40,014 nt of DNA from a virus: the IMG/VR virus record IMGVR_UViG_3300030098_004836, positions 1 through 40,014 of that record; one strand, 5' to 3'. Of the stretch, positions 1-40,014 are shown in pieces (within the stretch, counting starts at the first letter, position 1; every line of letters starts with the position of its first letter). The notes beneath the pieces are model-generated. The model was not told where the DNA came from and did no database searches. It saw only the letters and a list, made by a program, of their open reading frames with translations. Position numbers and translations under genes: made by a program.

Positions 1-992
1 AAATATGGGGGGCATCAATACAAGATTATATGGAAAAAAATCTTGTTTTTGGAGCTTTATGCGTAGACCAATCAGCTTTAGTTGCAGGCGGTGGAGACAG
101 AATCCATCTACCAAGACATACTGAATTAACTGCATCTGACACTTATGGTGGAGCAACAGCCGCTGTTGAAACCTTGATTGACACAAATTTAGCTTTTGCT
201 AAGTCTACTGATGCTGAAGATGCTTATACTTTAGACATCAATCAAGCTATCCATAGCGCAATTTCAATCACAGATGTTGCAAAAGTGCAATCAAGCTATG
301 ATGTAATGAATCTTTATACATCAAAACTTGGTTATGCGTTAGCTAAAAAAATCGACCAATACCTTGCTACAAAGTTATTTGAGGCTATTGCATTTAACTA
401 TGCTAATGGCACAGATGATGGTGCGCAAGCTGGTAATACAGTTGAAATCAATACAACTCACGATTCTACTGATATAACTGCTGCTGGTGTTGCTAATATG
501 TTGCAAGCAATATATGAGAATGATGGCAACGCAAGTGATTATGTATTAGTATTAACCCCTGCTTGTTACTCAAGCTTATTCAAGCTTGCAGAATTTGCAA
601 GATATGATGCTATTGGAACTTCTCAAGGTTCTGTAGTACCATTTATTAGTGGTTATGCTGGTATGTTAGGTGGAGTTGAAGTTATTGTATCTAATAACTT
701 TATGCACTATGGTGCAGGTTCTTCTACCTTAGCAGCTTCATCATCACCAGTTGGTAACTTTAGTGCTAATGGTGTTGACGATGAAAGTGAAAAGCTTTTA
801 GGCTATATGATTGCTAAGGATGCAATGCACATTGCATACTCATCAGGATTAAAGTCAAGAGTTCAAAGTGACTATCATCTACCTTCATTATCTACAAGAT
901 TTGTTGCAGATAGTGTATATGGTTGCTTAGTTACTGGAAGCACTACAGCAGGAAACAAAAAAGTTTTCGCAGTAGTTAGTCCAGCTTCATAG
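1..992 (+). CDS. Major capsid protein, 5'-truncated second allele or copy
   Basis: This is an open frame running in from the window edge (first full codon at base 3) to the stop at 992. It aligns without frameshift, apart from a net one-codon difference, to residues 58 to the end of the complete capsid gene at 38800-39957. About four in five residues look identical by eye, with differences concentrated in the middle (around 400-560) and around 700-830. Both copies share segments such as LTASDTYGG and SSYDVMNLYTSKLGYAL. The product would form the HK97-type icosahedral shell. The internal ATG at 30 is not the start, because codons upstream are conserved with the full gene. It may be a strain variant assembled as a branch or a true paralogue; see the terminal repeat. 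Confidence 0.9.
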   Translation, partial: IWGASIQDYMEKNLVFGALCVDQSALVAGGGDRIHLPRHTELTASDTYGGATAAVETLIDTNLAFAKSTDAEDAYTLDINQAIHSAISITDVAKVQSSYDVMNLYTSKLGYALAKKIDQYLATKLFEAIAFNYANGTDDGAQAGNTVEINTTHDSTDITAAGVANMLQAIYENDGNASDYVLVLTPACYSSLFKLAEFARYDAIGTSQGSVVPFISGYAGMLGGVEVIVSNNFMHYGAGSSTLAASSSPVGNFSANGVDDESEKLLGYMIAKDAMHIAYSSGLKSRVQSDYHLPSLSTRFVADSVYGCLVTGSTTAGNKKVFAVVSPAS

Positions 993-1049
993 TAAGCTAT
1001 AAATTAAGGGGGTGGGAAACTGCCCCCTTATAAACAGGAGAAAAAATGA
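973..1049. repeat. 77-base exact direct repeat, copy 1
   Basis: Bases 973-1049 are identical to 39938-40014, the very end of the window. The base just before the repeat differs (g at 972, t at 39937). It covers the end of the capsid gene, the hairpin and the start codon of the next small gene. A length of exactly 77 looks like a k-mer overlap left by a de Bruijn assembler, implying a loop of 38,965 bases. Confidence 0.9.
1005..1030 (+). other. GC-rich hairpin after the capsid gene
   Basis: TAAGGGGG (1005-1012) pairs with CCCCCTTA (1023-1030), an 8-bp stem with a 10-base loop, 13 bases after the capsid stop. There is no U-run after it, so it is probably a 3'-stabilising or attenuating hairpin rather than a full terminator. 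It lies between the highly expressed capsid gene and the genes that follow. An identical copy is at 39970-39995. Confidence 0.7.
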
Positions 1050-1226: not shown

Positions 1227-1631
1227 GTGAAAGATATAATAGAACAATTAAAAATTCACGAAGGCTATAAACCTAAAGTATATAAATGCACAGCAGGTGT
1301 AGATACAATAGGGGTCGGCTTTGCTATTAAAGATTTAGAATTATCTGAAGAAGTATGTGATTTAATTCTTACTGAAAAATTAGAAGTATTAGAAGAAAGA
1401 TTTGAAAAGAAATTTGATTGGTTTAAAACAAGTCCTGTAGAAGTTAGAAATGTTATGCTTAATATGGCATATCAATTAGGCTTTGCAGGATTTTGTAAAT
1501 TTAAGAAAACCATAGCGTACTTAGAAGAAGCAGAATGGGAAAAAGCTTCTGTAGAGATGCTTGACTCAAAATGGGCTAAACAAACGCCCAACAGAGCTAA
1601 AGAATTAAGTGAGATTATTAAATCTCTTTAG
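1227..1631 (+). CDS. Phage lysozyme, T4 gpe / GH24 type (endolysin)
   Basis: This 134-residue muramidase would cleave the MurNAc-GlcNAc bond of peptidoglycan for lysis. The N-terminal signature IHEGYKPKVYKCTAG.DTIGVG matches the GH24 active site: Glu12 as catalytic acid, Thr27 as the conserved Thr, and Cys21 at the position of T4 Asp20. Cys at this site is common in GH24 enzymes and is tolerated in T4 lysozyme. There is no signal peptide or membrane anchor, so a holin should be needed. The start is GTG 1227; no ATG is available in a suitable place and the ribosome site is weak. Several small membrane proteins follow at 2957-3898. Confidence 0.9.
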   Translation: MKDIIEQLKIHEGYKPKVYKCTAGVDTIGVGFAIKDLELSEEVCDLILTEKLEVLEERFEKKFDWFKTSPVEVRNVMLNMAYQLGFAGFCKFKKTIAYLEEAEWEKASVEMLDSKWAKQTPNRAKELSEIIKSL

Positions 1632-3898: not shown

Positions 3899-4098
3899 TG
3901 CTTCAAAAGCTCGTTATAAATAAGATTATTAATTTACTCGCTAAGAACTTTAAGCTCTTCGAGGTAATGAAATACGTTGAAGAGCCTAACGAGCTTGATG
4001 TAAAGGTGTTGGAGCTTGAGAATAAAATTTTAAAGTTAGAAAAGCTTCAAGGCAAAATAAAAAAGATAGAAAAAAGGTTAGAGTTATTTAAAAAATGA
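3898..4098 (+). CDS. Coiled-coil protein, 66 aa
   Basis: It starts at ATG 3898 inside the previous stop. The N-terminal half is hydrophobic and amphipathic (LVINKIINLLAKNF), and residues 34-66 form a regular Leu/Lys heptad helix (VLELENKILKLEKLQGKIKK). No recognised family. Its C-terminal bases overlap the start of the fibre-like gene at 4095. It could be a membrane-peripheral partner of the preceding proteins or a small virion component. Confidence 0.6.
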   Translation: MLQKLVINKIINLLAKNFKLFEVMKYVEEPNELDVKVLELENKILKLEKLQGKIKKIEKRLELFKK

Positions 4099-5723
4099 GC
4101 TATAATTTAAAAATAGATAAAAACCTTGGTACTGATTTTAAGAATATAAAAGCAGGAGAAGTAAGCAGCCCTATAAACATAAGTGTAGACAAGGTTCAAA
4201 TTGATGGCGATTTAGAGGTTACTGGAAATACTCTTACGTCATTTGACACCGTGTCTTTAAACAGTCTTACAGCAACCACTTTAAACTCTACAACCCATAA
4301 CGCTAATACAATTCAAATTAAAAGCGGGGCAAGCATAGATGGGACTGGGGGAAATGACCAACAATTAGATATAAATTGTTCTACTCTTTTTGTTAATTCG
4401 GTTGATAACTCATCCGTCGAGGAAACTTGCTTTTTGCAATTAATGTCTCTGGCTGATAACGATGTTGGTATTATTTTTAGAGAGGGCGTAAGTCAAATCT
4501 ATTATATGGGGATTGATGCAGATGATAGCGATAAACTAAAAATAGGGGGCGGAGCAACTATTGGAACAAGTACAGTAGCAGAAATTTCAAGCTCTACTAT
4601 AACTTTTAAGACTGATTTCGAATGTCAATCAGGGGCTGGTACAGATATATTTTCAATAAAAGCTGATGGAAGCGCAGATGTATTTCAGGTGGGCGGAGAA
4701 GATGGTAATTATAGTGTATTAAGATTAAATGAGCAAGGGGGTAGTAGCTCTACAGATTATTTTCAAATATTGGTAGAGGAACACGGAGCGACTACAGTAA
4801 CAACTCACGATAATGCTTTATCATCAGCTCATTTGACATTAGATGTTGATGGTGATATTAATTTAGATGCGGATAGTGGCGATATTAAACTTAAAGATGG
4901 TGGGAGCAATGTAGCTACTTTTGATTCATCAAACTTTCGATTTAGGCTTTATAATGGTGATAGTGCTTTGAATCTTGAGACTACAAGCAACAGAGGAGCA
5001 TCTACAATATCGACTGTAGATGCGTCAGGGGCTAACGAAGGTCATCTAAGTATATCTCCATCTGGAACAATTTCGCTCTCACCAGTTTCAGGAGGCGTGT
5101 ATGTAAGGGAAATGGCAATCCCAGCAGGAAATGTGGCTGCTTATGGACAATTATGGGTTAAAAACACTACTCCAAATGAACTTTATTTTACTACTGATGC
5201 AGGAGATTCTATACAAATAACCGATGGAACAAGTTTAGCAGGTGGTGGAGGGGGAACAAGTAGATGGACTTATAGTTGTACGGGATATAAGTCAAGTAAT
5301 TCGAGTAGCACTAATTATTATTATAGTAATTATGCAGGCAGTACATTACTTTGGTCAGGAAGTGATTCAAGCCCTACCACTACAACTTATATACCTTTGC
5401 CTCATTGGATTGCCCCTGCTGATGGCACATTAACAAGAATACAGGCAGAAGTCAGAGTCCAGACAACAGCCGATGATGGTAAGTTTTATGTTTATAAATC
5501 TACTCCTTCTGATGGAGTGACTACAAGAAGCTTAACATTAATAGGGACATCTGATTCTATGGGGATAGATGCAATTAATCAGACTTTTACTGCATCAACA
5601 GCAATAAGCAGTAGTAACACTTTTTCTCAAAATGATGGGCTGTATATTATGTGGAAAAAAGATTCACATAGCGGTACGGCAAGTCATTATTTTACAATAG
5701 CAATAAGCGGAGAATTTAGTTAA
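4095..5723 (+). CDS. Tail fibre-like or virion structural protein, 542 aa
   Basis: A 542-residue Thr/Ser/Gly/Asn-rich protein without enzymatic motifs. Residues 35-90 and 240-275 show short beta-solenoid-like repeats (for example LDVDGDINLDADSGDIKLK), a pattern found in fibre and structural proteins of marine phages. A run of five glycines near residue 382 separates this from a C-terminal Tyr/Ser-rich beta domain (about 388-542) that could be the receptor-facing part. It overlaps both neighbours (ATG inside the preceding gene, TAATG to the next). The genes at 4095-8258 look like a fibre or decoration cluster placed before the connector genes, an unusual position for fibres. Confidence 0.65.
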   Translation: MSYNLKIDKNLGTDFKNIKAGEVSSPINISVDKVQIDGDLEVTGNTLTSFDTVSLNSLTATTLNSTTHNANTIQIKSGASIDGTGGNDQQLDINCSTLFVNSVDNSSVEETCFLQLMSLADNDVGIIFREGVSQIYYMGIDADDSDKLKIGGGATIGTSTVAEISSSTITFKTDFECQSGAGTDIFSIKADGSADVFQVGGEDGNYSVLRLNEQGGSSSTDYFQILVEEHGATTVTTHDNALSSAHLTLDVDGDINLDADSGDIKLKDGGSNVATFDSSNFRFRLYNGDSALNLETTSNRGASTISTVDASGANEGHLSISPSGTISLSPVSGGVYVREMAIPAGNVAAYGQLWVKNTTPNELYFTTDAGDSIQITDGTSLAGGGGGTSRWTYSCTGYKSSNSSSTNYYYSNYAGSTLLWSGSDSSPTTTTYIPLPHWIAPADGTLTRIQAEVRVQTTADDGKFYVYKSTPSDGVTTRSLTLIGTSDSMGIDAINQTFTASTAISSSNTFSQNDGLYIMWKKDSHSGTASHYFTIAISGEFS

Positions 5724-5863
5724 TGGAAAAAATAGATAAAACAGTATCACCTTATATTGATGTTGTAGATGAGAGCAATGTTGATAGTATGTTAGAGATG
5801 AAATTAAGAATGATTCTGGTAGATAAAATTAATGAAATTGTTGATTGGATAAATTCACAATAG
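5723..5863 (+). CDS. Small acidic protein, 46 aa
   Basis: It starts at ATG 5723 overlapping the previous stop and is 46 residues long. The composition is acidic at the N-terminus (YIDVVDESNVDSM) and helical toward the C-terminus (LRMILVDKINEIVDWINSQ). No family recognised. Its position between two fibre-like genes suggests a small structural or assembly helper. It is followed by a GGAGAG ribosome site for the next gene, which partly overlaps its stop codon. Confidence 0.55.
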   Translation: MEKIDKTVSPYIDVVDESNVDSMLEMKLRMILVDKINEIVDWINSQ

Positions 5864-5871
5864 GAGAGTAA

Positions 5872-6654
5872 ATGGGATTAGAAGGAAAAACAATAGCTGG
5901 CTCATACAAAGATTTATTACATTTAAGTAATAATGGCTCTGGGGTATCTGCAACTAATATTCACGTTGTAAAAGACGGCAATGGAACTAATACATCTTTA
6001 CAGGTTGGAAAAAGAGGGACTTTAATAAAAGGACACGCAGACACAACGCTTACATTTCAAGTTTCCGATTCAAGCAATAACGCTGTATTAAATGTCAATA
6101 CTACAGATAAGGCAGTTACGGCTGGCACAACATTAACTAACGTTACAACTCAAATACAAAAATTTGGAGTGTATGATTTACAGCCAACAGCAGACACTCA
6201 TCACGCTATGTACTCTGATGCTGCAATGACTTCTATTTCAGGCTCTATAGACTTTGGAACAGGTGTAGACCCTGCAACTACATATACCTTAAGCTCATCT
6301 GAAGCTAATGCAAATTCTTTAGTAGCCTCTATATGGTATATTCCAACAGCGATTACAGTAGATGAAGTTAGAGTTATAGCGGCAGGAGAAGCGGCAGACA
6401 CTTTAAATTTCCATTTATACAGCTACGATATGGCGAGCGGTACTGGCTCAGGTGCAGGAGATTTATCAAATGGTGCTGTAGTTGCATCAACAGGAAGCAC
6501 TTTAACAACAGGCAATGACAGAGTAACAACAACAACATTAACAATAGATTCTGCAAATGTAGCTGCCGACAAAGTAATTATAGCTACAGTAGAAAATGTA
6601 GGGGCAACGACAGACGTTACCGCACAATTAATAGTAAAATATCACTATCAGTAA
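5872..6654 (+). CDS. Virion structural protein, fibre-like, 260 aa
   Basis: The product has 260 residues, Thr/Ala/Asn-rich, with no enzymatic motif. The N-terminal half has segments such as TLTFQVSDSSNNAVLNVNT typical of beta-rich virion fibres. The C-terminal half (about 110-260) appears to be a beta sandwich with ITVDEVRVIAAGEA and ADKVIIATVENVG. A good ribosome site (GGAGAG) precedes ATG 5872. Together with the neighbours it likely forms part of a fibre or decoration structure. Confidence 0.6.
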   Translation: MGLEGKTIAGSYKDLLHLSNNGSGVSATNIHVVKDGNGTNTSLQVGKRGTLIKGHADTTLTFQVSDSSNNAVLNVNTTDKAVTAGTTLTNVTTQIQKFGVYDLQPTADTHHAMYSDAAMTSISGSIDFGTGVDPATTYTLSSSEANANSLVASIWYIPTAITVDEVRVIAAGEAADTLNFHLYSYDMASGTGSGAGDLSNGAVVASTGSTLTTGNDRVTTTTLTIDSANVAADKVIIATVENVGATTDVTAQLIVKYHYQ

Positions 6655-6665
6655 GGAGAAGAATT

Positions 6666-8258
6666 ATGGCAAGATATGTCAACAGACAAGCAAGCAATTT
6701 AAATAATAATATTTCTAATAAAGAAGAAGTGGCAGAGACAGTACATTCTTTGAATACAATAAAAACTGTTAAGAAAGGGACTTCGAATAGAATATACGCA
6801 ATCGCAACAGACGCTTCATCAAGTGCTACAAACGAATCTATGCCTCGTAAAGTAGAGGTAGTTAATGAAGGAAGGTGTCCTATAACAATACTTACTGGCT
6901 ATGAAACTTATTCAGATGAGACTACTGGGGCTGGGGCAAAAAGATACCTTCAAACCTTATTGATGCCAAATGAATCCTTTGCTCCACCCGTAAGAAGCGT
7001 TATATCGACAGAAGCAGCTTCTACTCAATTTGATGGAACTGCCTCTAATTCAGGGGTTTATACAAAACCAGCAATTTCAAGCAATTTAATGTATGTAGAT
7101 TCAGGCGTTAATTTGGGTGCTAAAATAGAAGATACAGATACTACTATAACTACTGAGGCTAATGGAACAAATGCCTTTAGAGTAGGAGACCTTATACAAA
7201 TAGGAAATGTTAACACAGAAGATGACGACCAAGCTTTAGAAATTATGCGTGTAACAGAAATAACATCTGCTACGGTAATGCAAGTAGATAGAACATTGCA
7301 CGGCTCGGCAGATACTGTTGATGGAGACCAGCAAAATCACGCCACACACGGAGCGGTAAGTGGTGCTAATATAAATTTTCCTTATTTTAATGCCTTTCAC
7401 GATTGCTCGAAATACACTTCATCTAAAACAGATTCTAATGGAAAGTTTAAAGTAAGTAATATGTTTGGTTTAGGAAGAAGCAAAACTGCAACTGACAATG
7501 TCGGAATTGTCGCAGGCTCATTTGCTTTACGTTTTTATAAAGCGGGCTATCAGTCGCTTGGATTAAGCGGGATTAAAAGTTCTACCGAAACTGGTTTAAC
7601 GGCTGGCTCAACCTATTATCTAAAAGTATCTTGTGATGGCTCTACTGCTTTAGAAATTAATGTCACAATAGACTCAAGCAACACTCAGTTTGGAGGAACT
7701 AATGGTCTTATTTCTAAGCTTCAAACTGCTCTTGACGCACAGTTTTATACAGCAGGGCATTTATTTGAAAAGCAAGTTAATGTAGGAATAGTTGATGGAG
7801 ATTTAAGATTTACATCAGGTCAAAGAGGAAGCGACTCTGCAATAGCTCTAAGCGCTGGAACAAGCGGTGCAGATGCGTCTGTAAGGTTTTTTGCACAGGC
7901 TAATGGAAGGATACCTGCTCTTGCCAACTTGAACACGGCTGTGCCAGCAGATGTTCCTGATGAGTATATTTATGACCCAATTACTTACGAAAAATCAAGG
8001 AATGAAGAAGATTTAGCCTACGATGATGGTAGAGGCAATATATTAGGAGCGGCAGTCGGTAAAATTAATTATGAAACGGGTGCTTTTGAGATTCACGGAG
8101 CGCCTATTGATGCAGACTTTCAATACCTTGTTAATCATAGTTCTGCATTATCTGGAAAAGTAAGCTCAGATACAACAGGTAGAATAAATTCTTTGCAAGA
8201 AATATTAGCCAATACTATTAGTCAGAAAGAAGGAAAGGTTAGGGTGAAAGTTTCATAA
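6666..8258 (+). CDS. Virion structural protein, 530 aa
   Basis: The gene has a GGAG ribosome site 8 bases before ATG 6666. The 530-residue product is rich in Ser, Thr, Asn and Ala and has no enzymatic motifs. The N-terminus contains an Asn-rich segment (NLNNNISNKEE). The C-terminal part has an acidic stretch with DPITYEKSRNEEDLAYDDGRG (about 440-460), which looks like a linker before a short terminal domain. I do not recognise the family. Location between fibre-like genes and connector genes supports a virion role. The stop overlaps the next start (TAATG). Confidence 0.6.
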   Translation: MARYVNRQASNLNNNISNKEEVAETVHSLNTIKTVKKGTSNRIYAIATDASSSATNESMPRKVEVVNEGRCPITILTGYETYSDETTGAGAKRYLQTLLMPNESFAPPVRSVISTEAASTQFDGTASNSGVYTKPAISSNLMYVDSGVNLGAKIEDTDTTITTEANGTNAFRVGDLIQIGNVNTEDDDQALEIMRVTEITSATVMQVDRTLHGSADTVDGDQQNHATHGAVSGANINFPYFNAFHDCSKYTSSKTDSNGKFKVSNMFGLGRSKTATDNVGIVAGSFALRFYKAGYQSLGLSGIKSSTETGLTAGSTYYLKVSCDGSTALEINVTIDSSNTQFGGTNGLISKLQTALDAQFYTAGHLFEKQVNVGIVDGDLRFTSGQRGSDSAIALSAGTSGADASVRFFAQANGRIPALANLNTAVPADVPDEYIYDPITYEKSRNEEDLAYDDGRGNILGAAVGKINYETGAFEIHGAPIDADFQYLVNHSSALSGKVSSDTTGRINSLQEILANTISQKEGKVRVKVS

Positions 8259-11626: not shown

Positions 11627-12075
11627 AGCTTAATATACTTGGTAGTCCTTGCGAGGGCTGTAGATACCATAGTTTCCCATACGAGGCACTCTTGCCTTTA
11701 TATAAAGATGGGAAACGAATAAAAATGTCTTTTAATTCAAAAGATGATGTTTGGAGCGCTGTCGATTTATTAATCGATGACGCTCTGAACGCAAACACAA
11801 GTAAAAATAATGTGTCTTCTGCTATTATAGACCAGATACCTTTTTTTACCTGTGTTAACCATTTCTTTACAGACAGTATAAGAAAAGATATTGAAAGATA
11901 TATATATTGCGACCAATTTAAAGTTCCCCCTTATTTAGGGGATTATGGGCAACAACCATCTAAATGGGTTAAAAGAGCTTTTTTAATTAAAAATGCAATA
12001 GCTAAAAAAGAAAGTAAAGATATAGAAAAAATTAAAGCTGAGCAAAAAGCAAAAGCTAATAGCAAGAGGAGATAA
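11602..12075 (+). CDS. Tail assembly chaperone, -1 frame extension (gpT-like)
   Basis: This segment is in the -1 frame relative to the preceding ORF. It is open from upstream of 11602 to 12075 and has no ATG before 11725; the nearest possible independent start is TTG 11692. The region before that TTG still reads like protein (GSPCEGCRYHSFPYEALLPLY), which argues that translation arrives by frameshifting. The most likely slip point is the GGGGG run at 11602-11606 in codons GAG-GGG-GAA, where a Gly-tRNA on GGG can re-pair one base back. The C-terminus is Lys-rich. In long-tailed phages such G-GT fusions assist tape measure and tube assembly. Confidence 0.65.
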   Translation, partial: GGRDALQVELNILGSPCEGCRYHSFPYEALLPLYKDGKRIKMSFNSKDDVWSAVDLLIDDALNANTSKNNVSSAIIDQIPFFTCVNHFFTDSIRKDIERYIYCDQFKVPPYLGDYGQQPSKWVKRAFLIKNAIAKKESKDIEKIKAEQKAKANSKRR

Positions 12076-15000
12076 TGGCTAATAAAATTCAGATAAGATT
12101 TGAGGCGATAGGGGATAAGGCTTTAAGAAAGGCAATACAAGAACTTGCTAAAGCACAGGCTCAGCTTGAAAAAAATACTAAAAATTTAAACAAGGCAAAC
12201 AACGCCTTAAGCTCGGCTAATAATAAAGCTACTCAAGCAACCAATAATCACGCAAGGTCTCAAAAACTTATAAAACAAAGAGTTGAAAAGAATGTTCAAG
12301 CTTTTGGAAAACTTCAATCAACTTTAGCTGTTTATAGAAATAAGCTTTTACTCGCAGCCTTCGCAGCAACAGCTTTTAGGCAAACATTAGGAAGCCTTTT
12401 AGATGCTTATGCAAAACAGGAAGCGGCTGAAAGACAGCTTAGTGCAGTATTAGGAACAAGAAGCAGCAATTTATTAAAATTTGCCGCCGCTCAACAGCAG
12501 GTAACAATGTTTGGAGATGAAGTAACTATTCAAGCAATGTCTCAAACTGCCGCATTTATTAAAGATGAAGAACAAATTAAAGAGGTAATGAAAGCCTCTC
12601 AAGATTTAGCGACTTTATTTGGCTGGGATTTAAATACAGCGGCTCAATTAGTTACTAAAACTATCGCAAGTTCTACAAACGCACTTCAAAGATATGGTAT
12701 AGAAGTAGAGGGCGCAGTTGGTAGTGCAGCAAGATTTGAAAGCGTATTAAGCGCTGTAAACAATGTTGCAGGAGGCTTATCAGAAGAGATGGCTGGCACT
12801 TACACCTATGAAGTAGCTCAATTAGGAAATGCTTGGGGAGATTTAAAAGAAGAATTAGGAAAAGAACTTGCGCCTGTAATTACAAAATTAATAAGACTTA
12901 TTAAAGTTTTTGTTGAAGCGTTAGACCCTGAGAATATAAAAAGATTTATGATATCGTTAACTGCATCGGTGGTTGCTATGAAATCTTTTGCATTTGCTAC
13001 GGCAGGCGCATACACTAAAGGCAAAATGTTTGTTAGAGGAATGAGACTTATGAGCGTTGCTGCAAAAACATTTTCTAAAGCATTGAAAGCTGTTGCGTGG
13101 TTTACGGCTATAGATTTCTTAATACAGATGGCTTCTGCTACAAATAGAGTTAAGGGCGGATTTAATGATGCAACTACAGGAATACACGATTTTGATGCTG
13201 CTATAGAGCAACTTAGCTTAACAACTGGCGGCACAGAACAAACTATAGAGCATTTGCAACAAAAACTTGATAACTTAGAGTTTAAAAAAGAATGGGCTAA
13301 AGGCTGGGAAGAGTCTATGGCACAGGCGAAGAAAAATTGGGAAAGTACAGCGGGTATGCCAGCTTGGATGTCTAAAAGCTTAAATGCTGTAGGCGAATTT
13401 GTAGAAGACGCCATTCTTGACTGGTCTACACACGCTATAGCAGGGTTAGATAGAGTAGACTTAACTGATATTTTTGTTTTTGATAATGACGACAATATAA
13501 TTGATTTTACAGAGAGATTTCACGATATAGTGGTAGAAAAGTTTGGCAAAACTTACGATGAATTAAATGAAATGCAAAAAGCCTCACTTTTCAGAGGAAG
13601 TTTACAGCGACCTGATGCAGTAGGTTATATGGATTGGTCAGACATTAAGCCTGGCACTTTAGACTTTAAATGGGATGAAGGGCTTGTTTTTCAAGAAATA
13701 TTGGATGAAATTGAAAGAACAGAAGATATGTTGCGTGAGCTGGGAGCTATGCCAGATGCGGTAATAGAAGTGCCTGTTAAAGTCAAGCCAATAGTGACTA
13801 TGGATGATGATGATAAATTAGATGATACATTTAGAAAACTACTTCAAGAAGTAAGCGATTGGTATAAAATGAGAACAAAAATCCCTGAAGATAAATTAGG
13901 CGCAGATGTGTTTGAAAAAGCGTTCCCAGAATTACCTATTGAGGAGATAGGAGACGGGTGGGGAGTAGACATTGATAAATTGGTAGAAGTATTTGGAAGA
14001 AAGGCAGCTTTAGCGGATTGGATGGGAATTATTGATATTATTACAAGTGAAGTTGCAAAGCTTCCAGCCGCAATGGATGTCAATTTTGTCGAAGATATTA
14101 TTGTAAAAGCAATCGAAGTAGAATCTTATAAATTAGCAAATAAATTAGATAAAATTCCCGAACAGTTTAATACAATGTTTGACGGGCTAAACTTGTCAGA
14201 GTCTGAAAAGCTTAAAAAACAATTTGATATATATGAAAAACAGATAGAGAGCTATTTAATAGATATGATAAAAGTAGCCGATGCTGGGGCGTTTTCAGCG
14301 CATATAAATCCTGAACAATTCTTTAAAGATTGGACAAAAGATGCTGACCTAACAGGTGTTGACCAGATTGTAAAAAAATCAACGGAGACTTGGGTACAGT
14401 TTTTTGACAGAATGGGCAATTTGCACGATGGTGGGGCAGATATGGTCGCTGACTTTTTTGATACTTATGCCACTACGCTGCAAGACAAGGGGATTGCAAA
14501 TGTAGATGATTGGAAAAAATCTATTGATGAGTGGTTTAGCACGTCTGACCAAAAATTAAAAGATAACTCTAAGAGTGTAGATAATTTAATAAAAAATTAC
14601 CAAAAGAAAACAACTGCCATAGGTGAATTAAACCCAGCCATTGCAGAGTATAATACAGTTATAGAAAGCGCTACTAATATTACAGATAAAAATAAGAAAG
14701 AATTAAAAAAAGCTATTATTGCATATTATGAAGAAAAAAGAGTTATCGATAAAGTAAAAAGCTCAAGACAAGAATTATTAAGTATGATTCATTCGACAGA
14801 GATGGCTGAGCAAAGCCGTATAGCTACTTTACAGAACCAATTAGCCTTACTCGAATCAGTAACTGCCGCAGAATTAGACCAAAACACAAACGTTGCTGAT
14901 TTAGTTAAAAAATATAACGATTTAAATGGAGCTATAGACTTATATGCGTATACCTTGGGAAGTAGTTTTGTTGAGTCTAATGAATTAGCTTTGCAAGAAT

Positions 15001-15716
15001 TGGAAATAGTCAAATTAGAACTTGAAGCATTAAAAAAGCATTTTGAAGGCAATGCTGAAATGGTTGATTATTTAGATAGAGCTTTGCAAGGAGTAGAAAA
15101 ATCGGCATCAAGACTTAGCGCAGAGTTTATAAATTTAAGCGAGTGGGGCGACACGTTAACTACAGCGCTAAGTGGTATTGCTTCAGCGGCTGATGCAGCA
15201 GCTTGGTCTGGAGAGCATATGGGAAGAGCTATGGAACAGGCAATTCAAAGAATGGTTAGTATTATAGCTGCTAAGCTTGTGGTCTTTGCAACGTTTTTTG
15301 CTATATTATCAGGAATAGGTTTGGTTCAAACTGGCTCGCTTGCGGGTGGTCAAACTTTATTATATAATTTAACGGGGGGAGGTTTCTGGGAATCTTTTGC
15401 TAATTTTGCATTTCACAAAGGCGGAAAAGTAAAAGGCTATAGCGTAGGAGGGCAAGTAATGCCTTTATACCATTCTGGCGGAGGGGTTGACGATGTTCCT
15501 GCTATGCTTCAAGAAGGCGAATTTGTTATGCAAAGGAGCGCTGTTGACTCTATAGGTCTTGAAAATTTAAACAGAATGAATAGAACAGGGCAGTCTCAAA
15601 GTGGTGTTAATATTTCTTTTTCTGGAAACGTTTTAAGTCGTGATTTTATTGAAGAAGAAGCTATTCCTAAAATTAAAGATGCAATCCGAAGGGGTGCAGA
15701 TATAGGGATTGGGTAA
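12075..15716 (+). CDS. Tape measure protein, 1213 aa
   Basis: The longest helical protein in the genome and located right after the chaperones. Residues 15-85 are coiled coil (AIQELAKAQAQLEKN ...), with hydrophobic segments at about 88-108, 290-330 and 1060-1090 that fit the membrane-active parts of tape measures. The C-terminus (from about 1115) carries the familiar GGxV...SGGGVDDVPAMLQEGEFVM motif followed by S-A-V. It would set the length of a non-contractile tail and take part in DNA delivery; using the usual 0.15 nm per residue, about 180 nm (inference). The start overlaps the preceding stop (TAATG). Confidence 0.9.
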   Translation: MANKIQIRFEAIGDKALRKAIQELAKAQAQLEKNTKNLNKANNALSSANNKATQATNNHARSQKLIKQRVEKNVQAFGKLQSTLAVYRNKLLLAAFAATAFRQTLGSLLDAYAKQEAAERQLSAVLGTRSSNLLKFAAAQQQVTMFGDEVTIQAMSQTAAFIKDEEQIKEVMKASQDLATLFGWDLNTAAQLVTKTIASSTNALQRYGIEVEGAVGSAARFESVLSAVNNVAGGLSEEMAGTYTYEVAQLGNAWGDLKEELGKELAPVITKLIRLIKVFVEALDPENIKRFMISLTASVVAMKSFAFATAGAYTKGKMFVRGMRLMSVAAKTFSKALKAVAWFTAIDFLIQMASATNRVKGGFNDATTGIHDFDAAIEQLSLTTGGTEQTIEHLQQKLDNLEFKKEWAKGWEESMAQAKKNWESTAGMPAWMSKSLNAVGEFVEDAILDWSTHAIAGLDRVDLTDIFVFDNDDNIIDFTERFHDIVVEKFGKTYDELNEMQKASLFRGSLQRPDAVGYMDWSDIKPGTLDFKWDEGLVFQEILDEIERTEDMLRELGAMPDAVIEVPVKVKPIVTMDDDDKLDDTFRKLLQEVSDWYKMRTKIPEDKLGADVFEKAFPELPIEEIGDGWGVDIDKLVEVFGRKAALADWMGIIDIITSEVAKLPAAMDVNFVEDIIVKAIEVESYKLANKLDKIPEQFNTMFDGLNLSESEKLKKQFDIYEKQIESYLIDMIKVADAGAFSAHINPEQFFKDWTKDADLTGVDQIVKKSTETWVQFFDRMGNLHDGGADMVADFFDTYATTLQDKGIANVDDWKKSIDEWFSTSDQKLKDNSKSVDNLIKNYQKKTTAIGELNPAIAEYNTVIESATNITDKNKKELKKAIIAYYEEKRVIDKVKSSRQELLSMIHSTEMAEQSRIATLQNQLALLESVTAAELDQNTNVADLVKKYNDLNGAIDLYAYTLGSSFVESNELALQELEIVKLELEALKKHFEGNAEMVDYLDRALQGVEKSASRLSAEFINLSEWGDTLTTALSGIASAADAAAWSGEHMGRAMEQAIQRMVSIIAAKLVVFATFFAILSGIGLVQTGSLAGGQTLLYNLTGGGFWESFANFAFHKGGKVKGYSVGGQVMPLYHSGGGVDDVPAMLQEGEFVMQRSAVDSIGLENLNRMNRTGQSQSGVNISFSGNVLSRDFIEEEAIPKIKDAIRRGADIGIG

Positions 15717-18700
15717 TGATAGAAAGTTCAGCTCAGTTTATACGTACGTTATCTAAGACATCTAATTATATATATTATATTGTTCACCTAAATTCAAGCC
15801 AAAACGATAAATCAAAACATATATTTATATCTAATAAAAAAACTTCTAATTTTATAGACCCTGAATGTTCTGGCTTTTTAGATTTAGATTTAAAAGTTTC
15901 CCCTATAAAAGAAAGCATAAATCTGCAAGAAAAAAGCTTTAATACTAATAAAATATCTTTTTCTGTCTCCAACTCAGATAGTAAGGGAAAAAGCTTTACC
16001 GACCTTTTGTATAACACTAATTTTCAGGGAGCTGAATTAAAAATTTATATAGCGTCTGATGGAAGCGAAAGTGTAGATGATTGTGTTAATATATTCACAG
16101 GATATATTACGCAAGTTCAATCAGACTCTAAAAGGTGTGAAATATCCGCTGAAGACTATTCTTCATATACATTTAAAGAAAAAACTATACCAAAAAGAAA
16201 AAACCAGCAATCTACGCAAGAGCTTATAGACGGAAACGAAAACATACCGATTCCTATGGTTTATGGTCAAGTTGAAAACTCTAAAATGTTAATGACAAGA
16301 CCGCACATAAACAACTTAAAATCATATATATATCCCGACGCAGTTGACCAAGGAATAAATATTCTCGGATTTTCTACTGATTATAAAGCTTTGCAAATCT
16401 TTAGAGATAAGCTTTATTTAGATATTCCTCAAATATTTCAAGAAGTTGGTGCGGAGGACGACCCTTTAATTATTAACGGAATTAACTATAATTTGCTTTA
16501 TGTAGGCACACCTCAATATGAGATTGAGCAAGACCATATTCTTATAGAAAAAAAGATGTCTGGAAATTCTTTTACAGAGGGGATGCCATTAAATATACAG
16601 GCAAGAGAGCAGTTTCAGGTAGATGTTGAAAGAACCCCTTCAGGAATACAGCCCACATCTTCAGACTCAGTTCTTACATACGGGTATAATAATGAACAAG
16701 AAATAACATTTAACGGACACCAAAACGGATATAATATAAGCGATGGAGCAACATCGTGGAATTTTCCTCTTCCAACCGAAGGAATTCCTATAAGCTATCG
16801 TGAAAACATAGTTGTGGGACATATAACAAGAAAATTAGATAATGGAACGAGCGGAGAAGATTCTGGCTCTATTTGGTGGGTAAACGAGTATCTTAATCAC
16901 TCTAAACTTATGAATCAATATGACCCTAATGGATTTGGGGTAATAGAGATAGTTAGGCATCCTTCCGCAGATGAAGTAGCTGAAGTCTTAAACTTGCCAG
17001 ATGGCTATTACGGTCACGGCGAGATGAAAGTAAAAATATACGTTTGGAGACAAACGAGCGGTACTGGAGCATATATAGGACGTGTTTATCCGTATTGGTG
17101 GTGGACACAGTTGCCTGACCTTGAAGATTTGCAAGGCGCTGATAGTTTGTACGATTTTTGGAACGGGATAGCGGGAGAATGGATAAGAGATTATTTTAAG
17201 GGAGAGCTAAAGTATGCGTGGTCTACTGATGTTGTTGTTCGACACCCCTCTATTCAAGCTCTTAACTTAGGGACTTTGGGTAATTGGCTTAATATAGAAC
17301 AAGACTTTCAGCAATTTGAGATGGTTTATGGATATTCTTTTACAGATGGTCAAGATATTATAAAAATTAGGTTAGACGAAGACCTAACAGAGCAATTTGG
17401 CTCTGGGGCGGCATACCTTCCAAATTCAATATTAGGCGGTAAGGGTAGCTGGATAACAACTAATTCGTGTGGAGATGGGCTTCAATCAACTCCAAACCCC
17501 AGCACCTCAAATCAACGTCAATTTGCGTCAGAGATACCAGATTTAATAGGAGAGTGGGGAGCGCACGGTTCTCAAGGATACTATTATTGTTACGCAAATG
17601 GTTATCGTGTACCAACATTAAGAAAGTTTCTATATGGAAGAAGAATAACGGAAGACGAACATACGGAGACTGGGGGCGCTATTCCTTTAGGCACTTGGGT
17701 ATATGGAATTTTTCCAATAATCGGAGCTTTTAATCCTAAACACTTTAATCAAAGTGATGAGGATTCTTCTGGAGGAATGTATGTTTATGATATGGTTGGA
17801 GATGGTTGCTTGGCTTACGGAAACCCTTATTTTTACGGAGCAAGAAACCTTGAAACAGGCGAATACTACGAAAGTGGCAGTTATAATTTTGGTACTATGA
17901 GAATAGATGAGCTTAATGTTATTGAGTTTGAGGCAACTCCTAATGTTGCTATAAACGCTGACCATCAATGGGCAATAGGAATCCATAATAACTTTGGATA
18001 CGGATTTGGAAAATTAATTACAGATTGGTGGTGTCATACTCCTGGTTGGAATCAGTATGAGAGCGACCAACACCCTAACGGAGCAGCCCACAACATTAGA
18101 CCTGTTATAAAAAGTATTGGAAATTTAGCGCAAACAGGCGGAAGTTATTGCCCTATTCAATATACTGACGGCTTGGCTACAGCAGTTAAGATGGATATTA
18201 CATTTAATTCTGTGACTGGCTCAGATATAATACAAGGCTCAGTATACTCTATGTTTAAATGCAAAATAGATACCGAGTTTTCTTTGTTAGAGGTTGGAGA
18301 TTCCTCTGATGACCCAGCTAAAAACGTAGATTTTTTAGTTGAAGCCGATTGTTTTAAAATTAGAAGCGGACAGGGAAAAGGACATAATGACATTATAAGA
18401 AAAGAAAAGGTTAATACGCTTCCATTAACAAATATCCAAATTCAAACTGTTACCGACCATAACGGAAATACTTGGGACGAAGCGGTTGCAACAAACCCAT
18501 ATCATTGGAATACTGGAAGAGAACCAGAAGGCGAGGAATTAGGAAGCGTTTGGGACGAATATTTAACCGACACTAATTTAAATCTATCTTCTTGGATTGA
18601 TGATGAAGGAGTTCCTCAAACTGACCCAACTACAGTTATGAACGAATGTGATTCACACGAAGTTACCCCTGAAGATATACAAGCAGGTCGTGTAAATGCT

Positions 18701-20038: not shown

Positions 20039-20052
20039 ATATAGGGAAATTT

Positions 20053-32686: not shown

Positions 32687-32752
32687 TTTTACTCCTTTCT
32701 CTCGTCGAGAATTTGTTATTGTTTCGTTAATCTTGCCGTCAATCATACCTAT

Positions 32753-35413: not shown

Positions 35414-35627
35414 ATTCTTCTCCTAATTTTCGAGCTTCTATAATTTTATGCGCATATTGGACAATTGCGGCTTCGGCTATCGCCTCAGCCCACTTTTTAG
35501 GGTCTTTTATAATATCGGAAACATCGCCCTTTAAATCAACATTTATATTATCTTTGAGGTTCTTTATTTTGCTGACGTACTCTTTCAAAGATTGACTGTT
35601 CTTTGTTTTGTTGTTTGTTTTCTGCAA
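35388..35627 (-). CDS. Small helical protein after portal, 79 aa
   Basis: The start TTG 35627 lies within the portal 3' end and has GGAG 7 bases upstream. The product (LKEYVSKIKNLKDNINVDLK ... KKWAEAIAEAAIVQYAHKII) is helical and Lys-rich. It overlaps the portal gene by 80 bases and the gp10-like gene by 26. It could be a small head or connector component. Both overlaps suggest strong coupling. Confidence 0.6.
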   Translation of the reverse strand: MQKTNNKTKNSQSLKEYVSKIKNLKDNINVDLKGDVSDIIKDPKKWAEAIAEAAIVQYAHKIIEARKLGEEFGNKIKTK

Positions 35628-36852
35628 TTATTTTCTCCGCTTCTTTTAAAGATAAGTCATCGTTTTGCTCAACCAATAACTTAGCTTGGGTTGTTAAATT
35701 GTTTTCAAGCCTATGATTGTCCCAAAGTATTTGGTCTTGCATTGTTTTAGGGTACTCAGGCTCATTAAAGTCTAATTTAAGGCTTTCTGGCAACTTAATG
35801 CCATTGTAATCAGCAATCTCTCTTTCGATGTTATATAATTCGTGTTCATACATTTTCCAAAGCTCTAAATCGTCTTGATAGTCTTCAAATCTTTCTAAGT
35901 CCTTAATTTTTAAAGCTATCCCGCTTGGTACTTCTCCTCCATCTTGCGCAAATTGAACAAACAAGTGATTATTTTGCGCTACTAAGTCAACTTGAAACTT
36001 AACAGTCTCAATAACTGATTGCAAGTCTGCTTCAGGGGCTACTATATCAAATACAGAGCCTTCAGGTAAGTCTAAAATAGTATCAGAGCCAGCTCTCTCT
36101 AATTTCTTTTGATTTTGAAGCCCTGTAACATAAGGCTGACCAAACATTTGAAATCTTAACCCTAATTGAAGCTCAGTCATAGTGATATTGACGTGTTCAT
36201 TACAAGAAACTATATCATCTGCCCCATCTACAAAGAAAGAATCAATTTGGTTCTCTCTATGTGTAAATAAAAATGGAAGAACTCCGTATCCGTGTTCATA
36301 TTCTCCAGAAAGATTGCCATCTTCATCATATTCGGCATATATAGAATTATCCCAATAAGCATACTTTAATTTCTCTGTATAAGAGACATCGTTCACGTTT
36401 CCAAGTATAGGATACATTATAGCTTCTGGTTTAAAAGGATTATCTCCAAGATGAACATCAAAATAATAAACAGGAATGTAATCAAAATAAGGCATATCGC
36501 CATCTCTATATACAATTTGCGTTGCCACACTTCCAACTAAACGAGTCATTCTTTCAATGTGCTTCATTCTTGCGTCTTTTACGGTAGTTAAGCTTTTATA
36601 AGCAGGGTTCACATTCCTATTTGCTCCTACATTATATATTCGGCTCATTTTGTTAATAAATCTTCTTGTAAAATTAGCTTCATAGCAAGGGACTTCCCTA
36701 AATGCGTCTGCATCAAAATATCTGTTTATATATTTTGTAGTGTTTGTCCCGCAATAATAATCTATAAGCTTTCTAACATAATCTCTTCTCGCCTTCGCTT
36801 GAGATTGCTTAAAGTCTTGTATTGAATTTTGTATTATTTGTTCTACTGTCAT
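35548..36852 (-). CDS. Portal protein (SPP1-type)
   Basis: A 434-residue protein with the general features of phage portals: a helical N-terminus (VRKLIDYYCGTNTTKYINRY), 'Y.ANFTRRFINKMSRIYNVG', a stem region with GSDTILDLPEGSVFDIVAPE, and a C-terminal helical part (NEPEYPKTMQDQILWDNHRL, then a Gln/Glu/Lys tail). The portal ring is the entry point for DNA and the docking site for terminase and neck. It begins 4 bases inside the terminase gene end (overlap), so the two are coupled. It is read leftward, unlike the capsid genes. Confidence 0.85.
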   Translation of the reverse strand: MTVEQIIQNSIQDFKQSQAKARRDYVRKLIDYYCGTNTTKYINRYFDADAFREVPCYEANFTRRFINKMSRIYNVGANRNVNPAYKSLTTVKDARMKHIERMTRLVGSVATQIVYRDGDMPYFDYIPVYYFDVHLGDNPFKPEAIMYPILGNVNDVSYTEKLKYAYWDNSIYAEYDEDGNLSGEYEHGYGVLPFLFTHRENQIDSFFVDGADDIVSCNEHVNITMTELQLGLRFQMFGQPYVTGLQNQKKLERAGSDTILDLPEGSVFDIVAPEADLQSVIETVKFQVDLVAQNNHLFVQFAQDGGEVPSGIALKIKDLERFEDYQDDLELWKMYEHELYNIEREIADYNGIKLPESLKLDFNEPEYPKTMQDQILWDNHRLENNLTTQAKLLVEQNDDLSLKEAEKIIAENKQQNKEQSIFERVRQQNKEPQR

Positions 36853-38183
36853 CTTTTCCTCACTATTAATTCTTGTTGTTTAATTGGAAATCTGTTTATA
36901 AAAAAATACCTTATCATATCGCATCCGTGGTCGTGGTAACCATCTTTAACAGGTTCTGGCTTCAAGTCAGCCCCTTCTTTTCTTTCAGAGTATCTATAGC
37001 TTTCTAAATCTTGAGCAATTCCTTGGCATTTATTATGAACGTGCAAATATCTTTTCCCTATAGCATTTTCAACAAACCCTCTAACGTGTGTGATTCCTGA
37101 TGCGATATTTCTCGACACCTTATCTCTTATGGTTTGTATTATTATCCCGTTTTGTCTGAAAATTTCTATATCTCCTAAGCCTGACTGTCCTTGAGCCTGT
37201 TTTCCAGCAGGGTCGCCATAAAAAGCATTAATACCGTAAGGTTTTGACTTAATGCGATTGACAAGCTCGTCAGTCTTAATGTTTGTTTCGTGAATAATCT
37301 CATCTATTATATTTATATGCCATTCTCCATTTATTCTATATGTTTGAAACCAGCCTACTGCTGGCATCCTATAACCGAAGTCAATACTACAAAATGTAGG
37401 GTAGTTAGGGTTATAAGGATAATTTCCTACATCTAAATTGCGGTCAAATGGGTATACTTGACCAGCAAATGTTGTAAATTTAGCCCCATACTCTTGGTCG
37501 TAAGACTCTTGAGACATATTTCTTTTTCTTTCAAGAAGAAAAGAATCATTTTTCCCATCAGGAAAAGCAAATTGATTTTCCCACGAAGGCGCTTGGTGCG
37601 ATTCCCATAACTCGTCTGCCTGACCAAGTAAGTATAAATCATATATCCAATTAAAGCCTTCAGGAGTAGTGATAAATATAGCCTTTCCTTTTCTGTCTGA
37701 TAAAGTAGGAGATAAATACATATCCCATATTTTTCTTTTTACTTTAGCAGCCTCATCAATAATAAGAAGGTCTAATCCTTCTCCTACTAATGAATCTGGG
37801 TTGTCAGCAGACTTCCCTTCAACTACTGTCCCCCACTTAAATTTAATATAACGTTCTTTTTCAGACGCTCTTATAATATCGTTTTGATGTCCGACAACCA
37901 TTTTTTGCCAAATCTCACGAAACATTAAGTCTGCTTTATCGTAAGACAATCCAACACACCATATTCTTTTATTCGGCTGCGATGCTACATATGTGGCTTC
38001 CATAGCAGAGCAAGTTGTCTTACCAAACCTTCTTCCACATACCATTACAAAAAACCTTGCAGTATCTTTTGTTGGAAAATGTAATTTTTCTTGTCCTTTG
38101 TGAGGTTTGTACCCCATAAACTCAAACCAAGATTTCTTAAACTCTATGTCTTTATTTAAATTATTTTCCATTAAATGTTGCAT
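36849..38183 (-). CDS. Terminase large subunit (ATPase and nuclease)
   Basis: A 444-residue motor protein. Walker A is at 49-57 (CGRRFGKTT), Walker B at 139-146 (LLIIDEAA) with catalytic E144, and coupling motif ITTPEG at 171-176. The RNase H-type nuclease domain shows D268 (CSIDFGY), D324 (YGDPAGKQ) and D414/D422 in DGYHDHGCDMIRY. It pumps DNA into the procapsid and cuts it. The start is ATG 38183 or 38171 (MENNLN); neither has a clear ribosome site. It is read leftward and its start faces the scaffold gene over an 88-base divergent region. Confidence 0.95.
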   Translation of the reverse strand: MQHLMENNLNKDIEFKKSWFEFMGYKPHKGQEKLHFPTKDTARFFVMVCGRRFGKTTCSAMEATYVASQPNKRIWCVGLSYDKADLMFREIWQKMVVGHQNDIIRASEKERYIKFKWGTVVEGKSADNPDSLVGEGLDLLIIDEAAKVKRKIWDMYLSPTLSDRKGKAIFITTPEGFNWIYDLYLLGQADELWESHQAPSWENQFAFPDGKNDSFLLERKRNMSQESYDQEYGAKFTTFAGQVYPFDRNLDVGNYPYNPNYPTFCSIDFGYRMPAVGWFQTYRINGEWHINIIDEIIHETNIKTDELVNRIKSKPYGINAFYGDPAGKQAQGQSGLGDIEIFRQNGIIIQTIRDKVSRNIASGITHVRGFVENAIGKRYLHVHNKCQGIAQDLESYRYSERKEGADLKPEPVKDGYHDHGCDMIRYFFINRFPIKQQELIVRKR

Positions 38184-38204
38184 TAAACATCTGTCATAAT
38201 CTAA

Positions 38205-38224
38205 TTTATCGCAGAAGATAAATA
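38205..38224. promoter_or_regulatory. Dyad in the divergent terminase-scaffold region
   Basis: ATTTATC (38205-38211) pairs with GATAAAT (38218-38224) with a 6-base gap. It lies between divergent genes, surrounded by AT-rich promoter-like sequence (for example TATAAC near 38250 before the scaffold gene). It may be an operator shared by both transcripts. Confidence 0.45.
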
Positions 38225-38271
38225 CAAGATATAGTATTTTTATTTTTTATAACACAAGATAAGGGGGCAGT

Positions 38272-38790
38272 ATGTCCGAAGAGAATAATACAGTAGCAAG
38301 CGAAACAGTAAGTGAGCAAGCTACACAGAATACTACTCAAGATAGCTCGAATGAGGCGTATATTGCAGAAAGTAAAAAGTATAGAAAAAGAGCGCAGGAT
38401 GCAGAAGCTCGTATAGTTGAGCTTGAAAAGAAATTTGCAAAAGCGGAAGAAGCAAAGCTGAAAGAGAAAGAGGATTTTAAAACCCTTTATGAAAAGGTGT
38501 CTTCTGAAAATGAAGCCTTGTCGGCTACTGCTAAGAAATGGACTAAATATGAAGAAGGCAGACGAACTTCTTTATTGGAAAAGCATCCTGAAGACGAGAG
38601 GGAACAATTAGCAAAATTAGATTTGGAAACTCTCGAATTTGTCACAGGTAAAATTTCAAACATAAAACCTAATGCTCCACAAGTAATAGGAAGGTCTAAG
38701 GATGTCGTTCCCAATAAAGATTGGGGAGATATGAATGAAAAGGAAAAAAGAGCTTTCTATGCTTCCAAAGCTGCGGGTTTAAAATCTTAG
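38272..38790 (+). CDS. Scaffolding protein
   Basis: A 172-residue, highly charged, helical protein directly before the capsid gene. The first 30 residues are Ser/Thr/Glu-rich and disordered; residues 30-95 are coiled coil (KYRKRAQDAEARIVELEKKF ...); the C-terminus is Lys/Arg-rich (NEKEKRAFYASKAAGLKS), typical for contact to the capsid shell. An AAGGGGG purine run lies 5 bases before ATG 38272. It would guide procapsid assembly. It is followed by the capsid gene after 9 bases with an AGGAG site. Confidence 0.85.
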   Translation: MSEENNTVASETVSEQATQNTTQDSSNEAYIAESKKYRKRAQDAEARIVELEKKFAKAEEAKLKEKEDFKTLYEKVSSENEALSATAKKWTKYEEGRRTSLLEKHPEDEREQLAKLDLETLEFVTGKISNIKPNAPQVIGRSKDVVPNKDWGDMNEKEKRAFYASKAAGLKS

Positions 38791-38799
38791 GAGAAATAA

Positions 38800-39957
38800 A
38801 TGTTTAACTTAACTTTTGAAGGTCAAAATCCTTGGATTCAATCTGGTGTTGATTTTAATGTCACATCAAGAATTCAGATGAATTTGTCCGCAACAAACAA
38901 TGTTGCACTTGCTGGTGGTTTACAGGACTCTGATGCTGCTACTGCTTCGCTTCAGGAATTTATTCCCGAAATATGGGGTGCATCAATACAAGACTATATG
39001 GTAAAAAATCTTGTATTCGGAGCGCTTTGTAACGACCAATCAGCTTTAGTTGCAGGCGGTGGAGACAGAATCCATCTACCAAGACATAGTGAATTAACTG
39101 CATCTGACACCTACGGTGGCGGAACAGTTGCTGTAGAAACTTTGATTGGAACAAATTTAGCCTTTAGTGCAACTGGCGATGCTGAAGATGCTTACACTTT
39201 AGACATCAATCAAGGTATTCATAGTGCAATTTCAATCACAGATGTTGCGAAAGTACAATCAAGCTATGATGTAATGAATCTTTATACATCTAAACTTGGT
39301 TATGCCTTAGGTAAAAAAATCGACCAGTATATAGCTACATTATTGTTTCAGGCTGTTTCTTTCAATTATGCGGGCGCAACAGCCGATGGAAATAGTGCAG
39401 GAAACACAATCGAACTAAATGATGCTCACGATGAACAACATATAGAGGCAGTTGGTGTTTCTAATATGCTACAAGCTATATATGAAAATGATAGTAATAT
39501 TGAGGACTATGTAATGATTCTTGTTCCTAAAGTATATGCAAGTCTATTTAAGTTAGCTGACTTTGCAAGATACGATGGAATTGGAAACTCGTTAGGCAGT
39601 CAAGTTCCTTTTATAAGCGGCTTTGCGGGCAAGCTTGGTGGGGTTGAAGTTATTGTATCTAATAACTTTATGCACTACTCTTCAGGCTCAACTTTAGCTC
39701 AAACATCAACCCCTAAAGGAAACTTTAGTTCAAATAGTGTTGATGATGAAAGTGAATTCCTATTGGGTTACTTAGTTCATAAAGATGCTATGCATATTGC
39801 ATACTCTTCTGGATTGAAAGCAAGAGTTCAAAGTGACTACCACCTACCTTCATTATCTACAAGATTTGTTGCAGATAGCGTTTATGGTGCTTTAGTTACT
39901 GGAAATACTACAGCAGGAAACAAAAAAGTTTTCGCATTAGTTAGTCCAGCTTCATAG
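38800..39957 (+). CDS. Major capsid protein, complete copy
   Basis: A 385-residue protein with an AGGAG ribosome site. It begins MFNLTFEGQNPWIQSGVDFN and includes QEFIPEIWGASIQDYMVKNL, a pattern of HK97-fold capsid proteins of marine phages ('f.pe.w..e....l.....f'), and later SSYDVMNLYTSKLGYALGKK and the C-terminal FALVSPAS. It follows the scaffold gene. Identity is supported by context and by being the most conserved part of the window between its two copies. The partial copy at 1-992 is homologous but different. Confidence 0.9.
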   Translation: MFNLTFEGQNPWIQSGVDFNVTSRIQMNLSATNNVALAGGLQDSDAATASLQEFIPEIWGASIQDYMVKNLVFGALCNDQSALVAGGGDRIHLPRHSELTASDTYGGGTVAVETLIGTNLAFSATGDAEDAYTLDINQGIHSAISITDVAKVQSSYDVMNLYTSKLGYALGKKIDQYIATLLFQAVSFNYAGATADGNSAGNTIELNDAHDEQHIEAVGVSNMLQAIYENDSNIEDYVMILVPKVYASLFKLADFARYDGIGNSLGSQVPFISGFAGKLGGVEVIVSNNFMHYSSGSTLAQTSTPKGNFSSNSVDDESEFLLGYLVHKDAMHIAYSSGLKARVQSDYHLPSLSTRFVADSVYGALVTGNTTAGNKKVFALVSPAS

Positions 39958-40014
39958 TAAGCTATAAATTAAGGGGGTGGGAAACTGCCCCCTTATAAAC
40001 AGGAGAAAAAATGA
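39938..40014. repeat. 77-base exact direct repeat, copy 2 (window end)
   Basis: The final 77 bases equal 973-1049. The last four bases (ATGA at 40011-40014) are the start of the small gene found at 1046. Joining both ends gives a circle of 38,965 bases in which 38800-39957 is the capsid gene and the small gene at 1046 follows. Confidence 0.9.
39970..39995 (+). other. GC-rich hairpin after the capsid gene, second copy
   Basis: TAAGGGGG pairs with CCCCCTTA in the same sequence as at 1005-1030. It is within the exact 77-base terminal repeat. Confidence 0.7.

Follow-up and report, generated by a model that had tools for sequence, protein, structure and literature searches.

Two alleles of a capsid gene on one viral contig and evidence for a capsid exchange cassette in its phage group

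The major capsid protein (MCP) is a widely used marker of phage kinship. Mosaic head genes in P22-like phages provide a precedent for the exchange of head genes, and a 2011 paper by Casjens and Thuman-Commike is reportedly associated with this mosaicism. In a wider sense, diverged gene variants ("islands") on near-identical phage genomes have been described already (PMC3909814, PMC7468147), and one member of a phage family was reported to carry a distinct MCP with incongruent gene trees (PMC11946847). In the available parts of PMC3909814 and PMC7468147, the MCP is not named as an island gene. A literature search over titles and the beginnings of abstracts, with subscription journals mostly outside its reach, returned none reporting capsid exchange of the kind discussed here.

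The DNA under study, referred to as the window, is a viral contig of 40,014 nucleotides (IMGVR_UViG_3300030098_004836). In our reading, to which we assign a probability of roughly 0.85, the window would consist of a circle with MCP allele B and a stub with allele A from a co-occurring strain, the two alleles occupying a single slot, and MCP, scaffold tail and adjoining spacer would form an exchange cassette in this phage group.

Shape of the contig and genes around the capsid slot

The window comprises the entire IMG/VR record, which is classed as linear, so that position 1 is a genuine contig end. This 5′ end lies within a gene, and the longest word it has in common with the rest of the contig is at most 10 bases. 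The terminal 77 bases recur exactly once (Table 1); 77 is the length of the longest repeated suffix, and the match is inextensible, base 972 being G where the corresponding base is T. An exact match of 77 bases far exceeds chance. The initial annotation had pointed out this repeat together with the differing base before it, and had described the window as a 38,965-base loop with a tail. Both descriptions are exact, as 40,014 − 1,049 bases leave a loop of 38,965 and a tail of 1,049.

An assembler run at k = 77 leaves an overlap of exactly 77 bases, and the overlap found here is fitting for such a k. End repeats in related contigs support this value. The terminal 77-base word of G028, the contig of L087 from another metagenome, also occurs internally at 2293, G023 has a perfect end repeat of 99 bases, and G022, G012 and G030 show 98-base repeats at the contig ends or no more than two or three bases away. 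G028 is a second lollipop, with the structure of the window at another variable locus: its stub (1–2292) carries other versions of the genes that correspond by homology to window positions 5872–8258 and runs back into the loop within the conserved gene that follows, at the exact 77-base word (L157 1–2369 and the end of L158). For the window, we infer a de Bruijn graph in which the contig would be such a lollipop. The circle, closed in the graph, would represent a single phage genome with allele B and a length of 38,965 bases, and the 1,049-base stub a second, co-occurring strain with allele A. Where the capsid gene ends, the two strains first have a 77-base word in common, and there the stub would enter the circle.

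Table 1. Positions of the capsid alleles, their neighbours and the repeated word in the window
Feature	Position	Strand	Remarks
MCP allele A	3..992	+	329 aa, open at the contig 5′ end; first codon corresponds to B residue 58; PHROG 267
77-base word, first copy	973..1049		Last MCP codons, terminator-like hairpin and sequence beyond; exact match to contig end
Terminator-like hairpin	about 1005–1030		Inside the 77-base word; −20.2 kcal/mol, z −3.1
Lysozyme/endolysin gene	1227..1631	+	PHROG 7; in relatives, the exchange block has its right border at the gene start
Putative portal gene	35548..36852	-	Named by position beside terminase; backbone marker
Terminase large subunit	36849..38183	-	PHROG 2; backbone marker
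Putative scaffold gene	38272..38790	+	Named by position and co-variation; last ~30 residues (about 38689–38790) co-vary with MCP type in relatives
MCP allele B, capsid gene of the circle	38800..39957	+	385 aa; PHROG 267; Pfam Phage_capsid_4; model matches HK97-fold capsids
Central segment of MCP B, most unlike A	39331..39810	+	Residues 178–337; A counterpart about 363–842
77-base word, second copy	39938..40014		Circle closes here; exact match

Allele A, known from the 1,049 bases of the stub only, aligns to B residues 58–385 with 264 of 328 residues identical (80.5%) and 78.6% nucleotide identity. The nucleotide differences are distributed over the three codon positions as 55/41/115. These values agree with the earlier description of 1–972 as another variant of the capsid gene at 38800–39957 with about one in five residues changed. 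Both alleles match PHROG 267 (major head protein), as do examples of the four further MCP types found in relatives, M2, M3, M4 and M5. AlphaFold models were obtained for B (pLDDT 67, with a disordered N-terminus) and for the M3 protein of L088 (pLDDT 76), and matched HK97-fold phage capsids in the PDB with best E values of 1.5e-12 and 5.5e-12, respectively, and TM scores of about 0.4–0.6. The models are of moderate quality, and the variable segment was placed without them. All types are capsids, with an HK97 fold predicted from the models of B and M3 (L088).

A PHROG profile search of the putative portal gene of the window gave no match. The window scaffold gene had no match among PHROG or Pfam profiles, and the scaffold genes of L087 and L088 none among PHROG profiles. 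Elsewhere in the window, an Amidoligase_2 protein (31136–32746, minus strand, E 1e-5) adjoins a class-II glutamine amidotransferase-like protein (30091–30873, minus strand) that stayed under the Pfam cut-off; neither was found in the four long relatives compared. A large putative tail protein (15716–20038, plus strand) ends in a C-terminal Dockerin_1 domain (aa 1381–1436, E 5e-9), which is unusual for a phage. The fibre and tail genes (4095–8258 and 12075–21914) mostly show 27–50% identity or no match in relatives with a terminase identity of 86–90%.

Capsid types and backbone genes across the relatives

The terminase query contributed the best 80 of 198 relatives. In total, 148 loci were reduced to 113 by removing contained loci and identical genes, and applying minimum lengths gave, with the window included, 94 terminase, 75 portal, 108 scaffold, 100 MCP and 81 lysozyme rows. 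Contigs without an MCP match include L104, L124, L142, L144 and L150. At 45% identity, the MCPs form five types, M1–M5, comprising 47, 21, 19, 12 and 1 rows; both alleles of the window fall into the first. The type table covers 68 loci.

For the 37 terminase-fetched contigs with all genes present (drawn from the best 80 of 198), the rank correlation of pairwise identities with those of the terminase was 0.83 for lysozyme, 0.79 for portal and 0.75 for scaffold, and 0.02 for the MCP. An earlier calculation on capsid- and terminase-fetched loci had given a rho of −0.15 between terminase and MCP. As such a mixed fetch is biased against agreement, the correlation was redone on terminase-fetched contigs only.

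Individual pairs illustrate both directions of the discordance. In L087 and L088, the terminase proteins are 100%, the portal proteins 99.8% and the lysozymes 96.6% identical, and the MCPs 25.8%. At the DNA level, the left flank of the block (5,068 bases) agrees to 98.0% and the right flank (1,196 bases) to 99.5%; between the scaffold 3′ end and the lysozyme start, nucleotide identity drops from these 98–99.5% to about 40%. Conversely, L091 and L113 have MCPs of 97.6% and terminases of 77.6% identity, with nucleotide identities of 82–95% over the MCP and 40–85% on the left flank. An MCP identity of at least 85% combined with a terminase identity below 82% was found in 38 of 3,160 pairs. The 76 pairs with terminases at least 95% identical divide into 39 of the same and 37 of different MCP type, and all five types are present among the 32 typed contigs, from 27 metagenomes, whose terminase is at least 85% identical to that of the window. 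The terminase tree, a quick tree with many weak forks, requires 31 MCP type changes over 81 typed rows, compared to a minimum of 4 for five groups and a mean of 43.6 after shuffling; the MCP type is thus partly inherited yet often changed. Restricted to the terminase query and the window, the same tree shows 26 changes over 61 typed rows, and its starred branches alone require at least 7, 8, 10 and 6 changes for M1, M2, M3 and M4.

Diverged homologous variants at one locus of near-identical genomes, one feature by which islands are recognised, were found for L087/L088 and for the 19 pairs with borders described below. The pattern shown by these comparisons is that of an MCP slot acting as an exchange cassette, with the neighbour genes nearly constant. 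As judged from the gene identities, capsids are exchanged throughout this group, often for proteins much more distant from each other than A is from B. The MCP here tells least about the backbone, while terminase, portal, scaffold body and lysozyme agree mutually. Capsid-based trees of such phages would therefore mislead.

The borders of the exchange were located in 19 pairs with terminases at least 95% identical and MCPs of different type. The left change-point lies at a median of 153 alignment columns before the scaffold stop (range 108 to 485), the right one close to the assigned lysozyme start (median distance 4 bases, range −22 to +52). Scaffold windows within residues 1–139 are unrelated to MCP identity (rho at most 0.09) and follow the terminase, and windows 140–159 and 150–169 correlate with the MCP (rho 0.49 and 0.38) rather than with the terminase (0.16 and 0.06). 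Hence, the last ~30 residues of the scaffold travel with the MCP whereas the remainder does not. In P22, the scaffold binds the coat protein with its two C-terminal helices (PMC9965877), and the co-variation of the scaffold C-terminus with MCP type is, as co-variation, compatible with coat binding. By this analogy, the exchange block looks like the capsid protein plus that part of the scaffold that must fit the capsid. The pattern is that of MCP, scaffold C-terminal tail and spacer being replaced as one block, bounded by the conserved scaffold body and the conserved lysozyme start; the tail would move along because contact with the capsid protein is expected of it. The likely route would be homologous recombination between co-infecting phages via these two conserved stretches.

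The borders showed neither a recombination enzyme nor a recombination site. A homing endonuclease or integrase beside the MCP was considered as motor of the exchange, and none of the nine extra ORFs scanned after the MCP matched one (0/9). In Pfam, three of these ORFs matched Laminin_G_3 (lectin-like) and one NKWYS (a capsular-polysaccharide family), and five had no match. The Laminin_G_3 proteins lie between MCP and lysozyme in some relatives (L037:2371–3540, L058:2544–3701, L056:11538–13448) and are perhaps capsid decorations.

Alternative explanations

The initial annotation had left two readings of the window side by side: either strains that co-occur and have recombined at the capsid gene, or a tandem capsid paralogue. 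In the latter case, one genome would carry MCP B followed by MCP A, and the assembly would have broken at the repeat. The 77-base repeat on its own is compatible with this arrangement, which would however leave unexplained why the contig starts in mid-gene with words of at most 10 bases in common with the rest. Moreover, a second MCP match was found in 0 of the 148 related loci other than the window, and when 45 of the fetched records were searched as a whole, 44 had an MCP at one place (split into two pieces of a single ORF in two of them) and one had no match. Contig L003 (IMGVR_UViG_3300030109_004063) is the key relative here: in the same gene order as the window, its sole MCP is 97% identical to A, and the scaffold and lysozyme on either side share 94% and 89% identity, respectively, with those of the window. 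In steps of 60 bases, the A side is 87–100% identical to L003 from position 1 to about 1140 and mostly 72–97% thereafter, and the B side 82–98% through the scaffold gene and down to 52–83% in mid-MCP. L003 was also the only contig matched by a 33-base word of the 3′ flank in an exact-word search, this word being an exact part of the 77-base repeat. Searches with exact 36-base words, taken from either allele, retrieved no record from this collection, which may lack very near records, and a DNA search of window 36000–40014 against a phage collection gave no match. We consider the tandem reading, which is not supported by these comparisons, very improbable. The reading of co-occurring strains is strongly favoured by L003, the lack of double MCPs in the related loci and the G028 lollipop, and the sequence comparisons give good support to A and B being alternatives for a single slot rather than two capsids in the same virion.

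Alleles of one slot could also have diverged in place, through selection on an exposed capsid segment and without exchange. Both A and B are of type M1, and their amino acid differences are concentrated in a single segment: A codons 1–120 and 281–328 are near B and codons 121–280 distant, the amino acid identity being 90%, 70% and 92% for B residues 58–177, 178–337 and 338–385. Still, the silent sites are uneven too, with NG86 dS values of 0.42, 1.85 and 0.27 for the first, middle and last part and differences at 26 of 45 four-fold sites in the middle versus 13 of 69 outside (Fisher P = 4e-5, with limits set after inspection). The dN/dS ratio, taken from the NG86 output, is 0.14–0.18 in all three parts. 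The L003 scaffold is 94% identical to that of the B genome, while its MCP is only 81% identical to B but 97% to A. In-place divergence is accordingly regarded as unlikely. Selection alone would be a poorer explanation of the high silent divergence confined to one tract than a replacement of this tract by sequence from a source outside the sampled set; for the middle segment of B, the nearest other capsid of the set is only 75% identical. Besides the whole block, smaller tracts within the MCP may thus be exchanged as well, leaving A and B different mainly in one central segment. With respect to the group as a whole, apparent swaps might be assembly chimeras, i.e. misjoins of unrelated phages at conserved words. 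Every contig is metagenomic and most are fragments, some single swaps could be chimeric, and the window itself joins two strains. However, one swap would require two misjoins, one at each side, returning to the same backbone, and this would have to account for the five types in the terminase clade of the window as well as for the 37 of 76 close pairs that differ in type. Furthermore, the MCPs common to distant backbones are themselves diverged (82–95% at the nucleotide level), indicative of old transfers and not of copied reads. Chimeras as a general explanation are very unlikely, and exchange of the capsid block remains our preferred reading.

Possible driver and comparison with known systems

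A scan of a genome collection returned one close terminase, at 78%, on L171, a 13-kb contig binned with the MAG "bacterium TMED88"; the remaining matches (best 80 of 207) were at 27–38%. This is a weak hint to a host, too little to name one. TMED88 and other names suggest a marine habitat.

Bacterial defences that sense capsid proteins may be the driver of the exchange, as a phage that changed its capsid type and kept the rest of its genome would escape them. CapRel senses MCPs, and phages escape it through MCP substitutions (PMC11578894). Staphylococcal Thoeris responds to the capsids of one serogroup but not to those of another, which its authors propose as a force behind capsid diversity (PMC11312562). 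Both systems supply a reason to change the capsid protein, and by analogy an escape from capsid-sensing host defences is plausible; in contrast to CapRel and Thoeris, such a defence in the host of the present phages is hypothetical. A fuller scenario of capsid serotype switching, in which at least four to five capsid types circulate among co-occurring lineages, are swapped, together with the scaffold tail that fits the coat, into genomes that otherwise stay the same, and are favoured by defences when rare, is possible but put forward tentatively, with the odds somewhat against it. The sharp borders can serve as a natural experiment to find the scaffold residues that have to match the capsid, and the group itself as an open system in which to ask whether capsid diversity is driven by capsid-sensing immunity.

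Among described systems, the phages from cryoconite resemble the present group in their near-identical cores and in diverged homologous variants at fixed loci, several of them co-present and with contigs broken there. Their islands comprise methyltransferases, tail fibres, terminases and others, with the capsid at most contained in 11 "structural proteins" (PMC7468147). Metaviromic islands likewise concern marine phages and loci that differ between co-occurring lineages, but Table 1 of that study contains host-recognition genes and terminases and no capsid gene (PMC3909814), whereas the terminase is a conserved marker here. Unlike in the cryoconite islands, the variable gene in the present phages is the MCP itself, together with part of the scaffold. 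The P22-like phages share with them the exchange of head genes as modules, in which coat and scaffold must fit. They differ in that here the border cuts through the scaffold gene, and the exchange takes place between backbones of up to 99.5% DNA identity.
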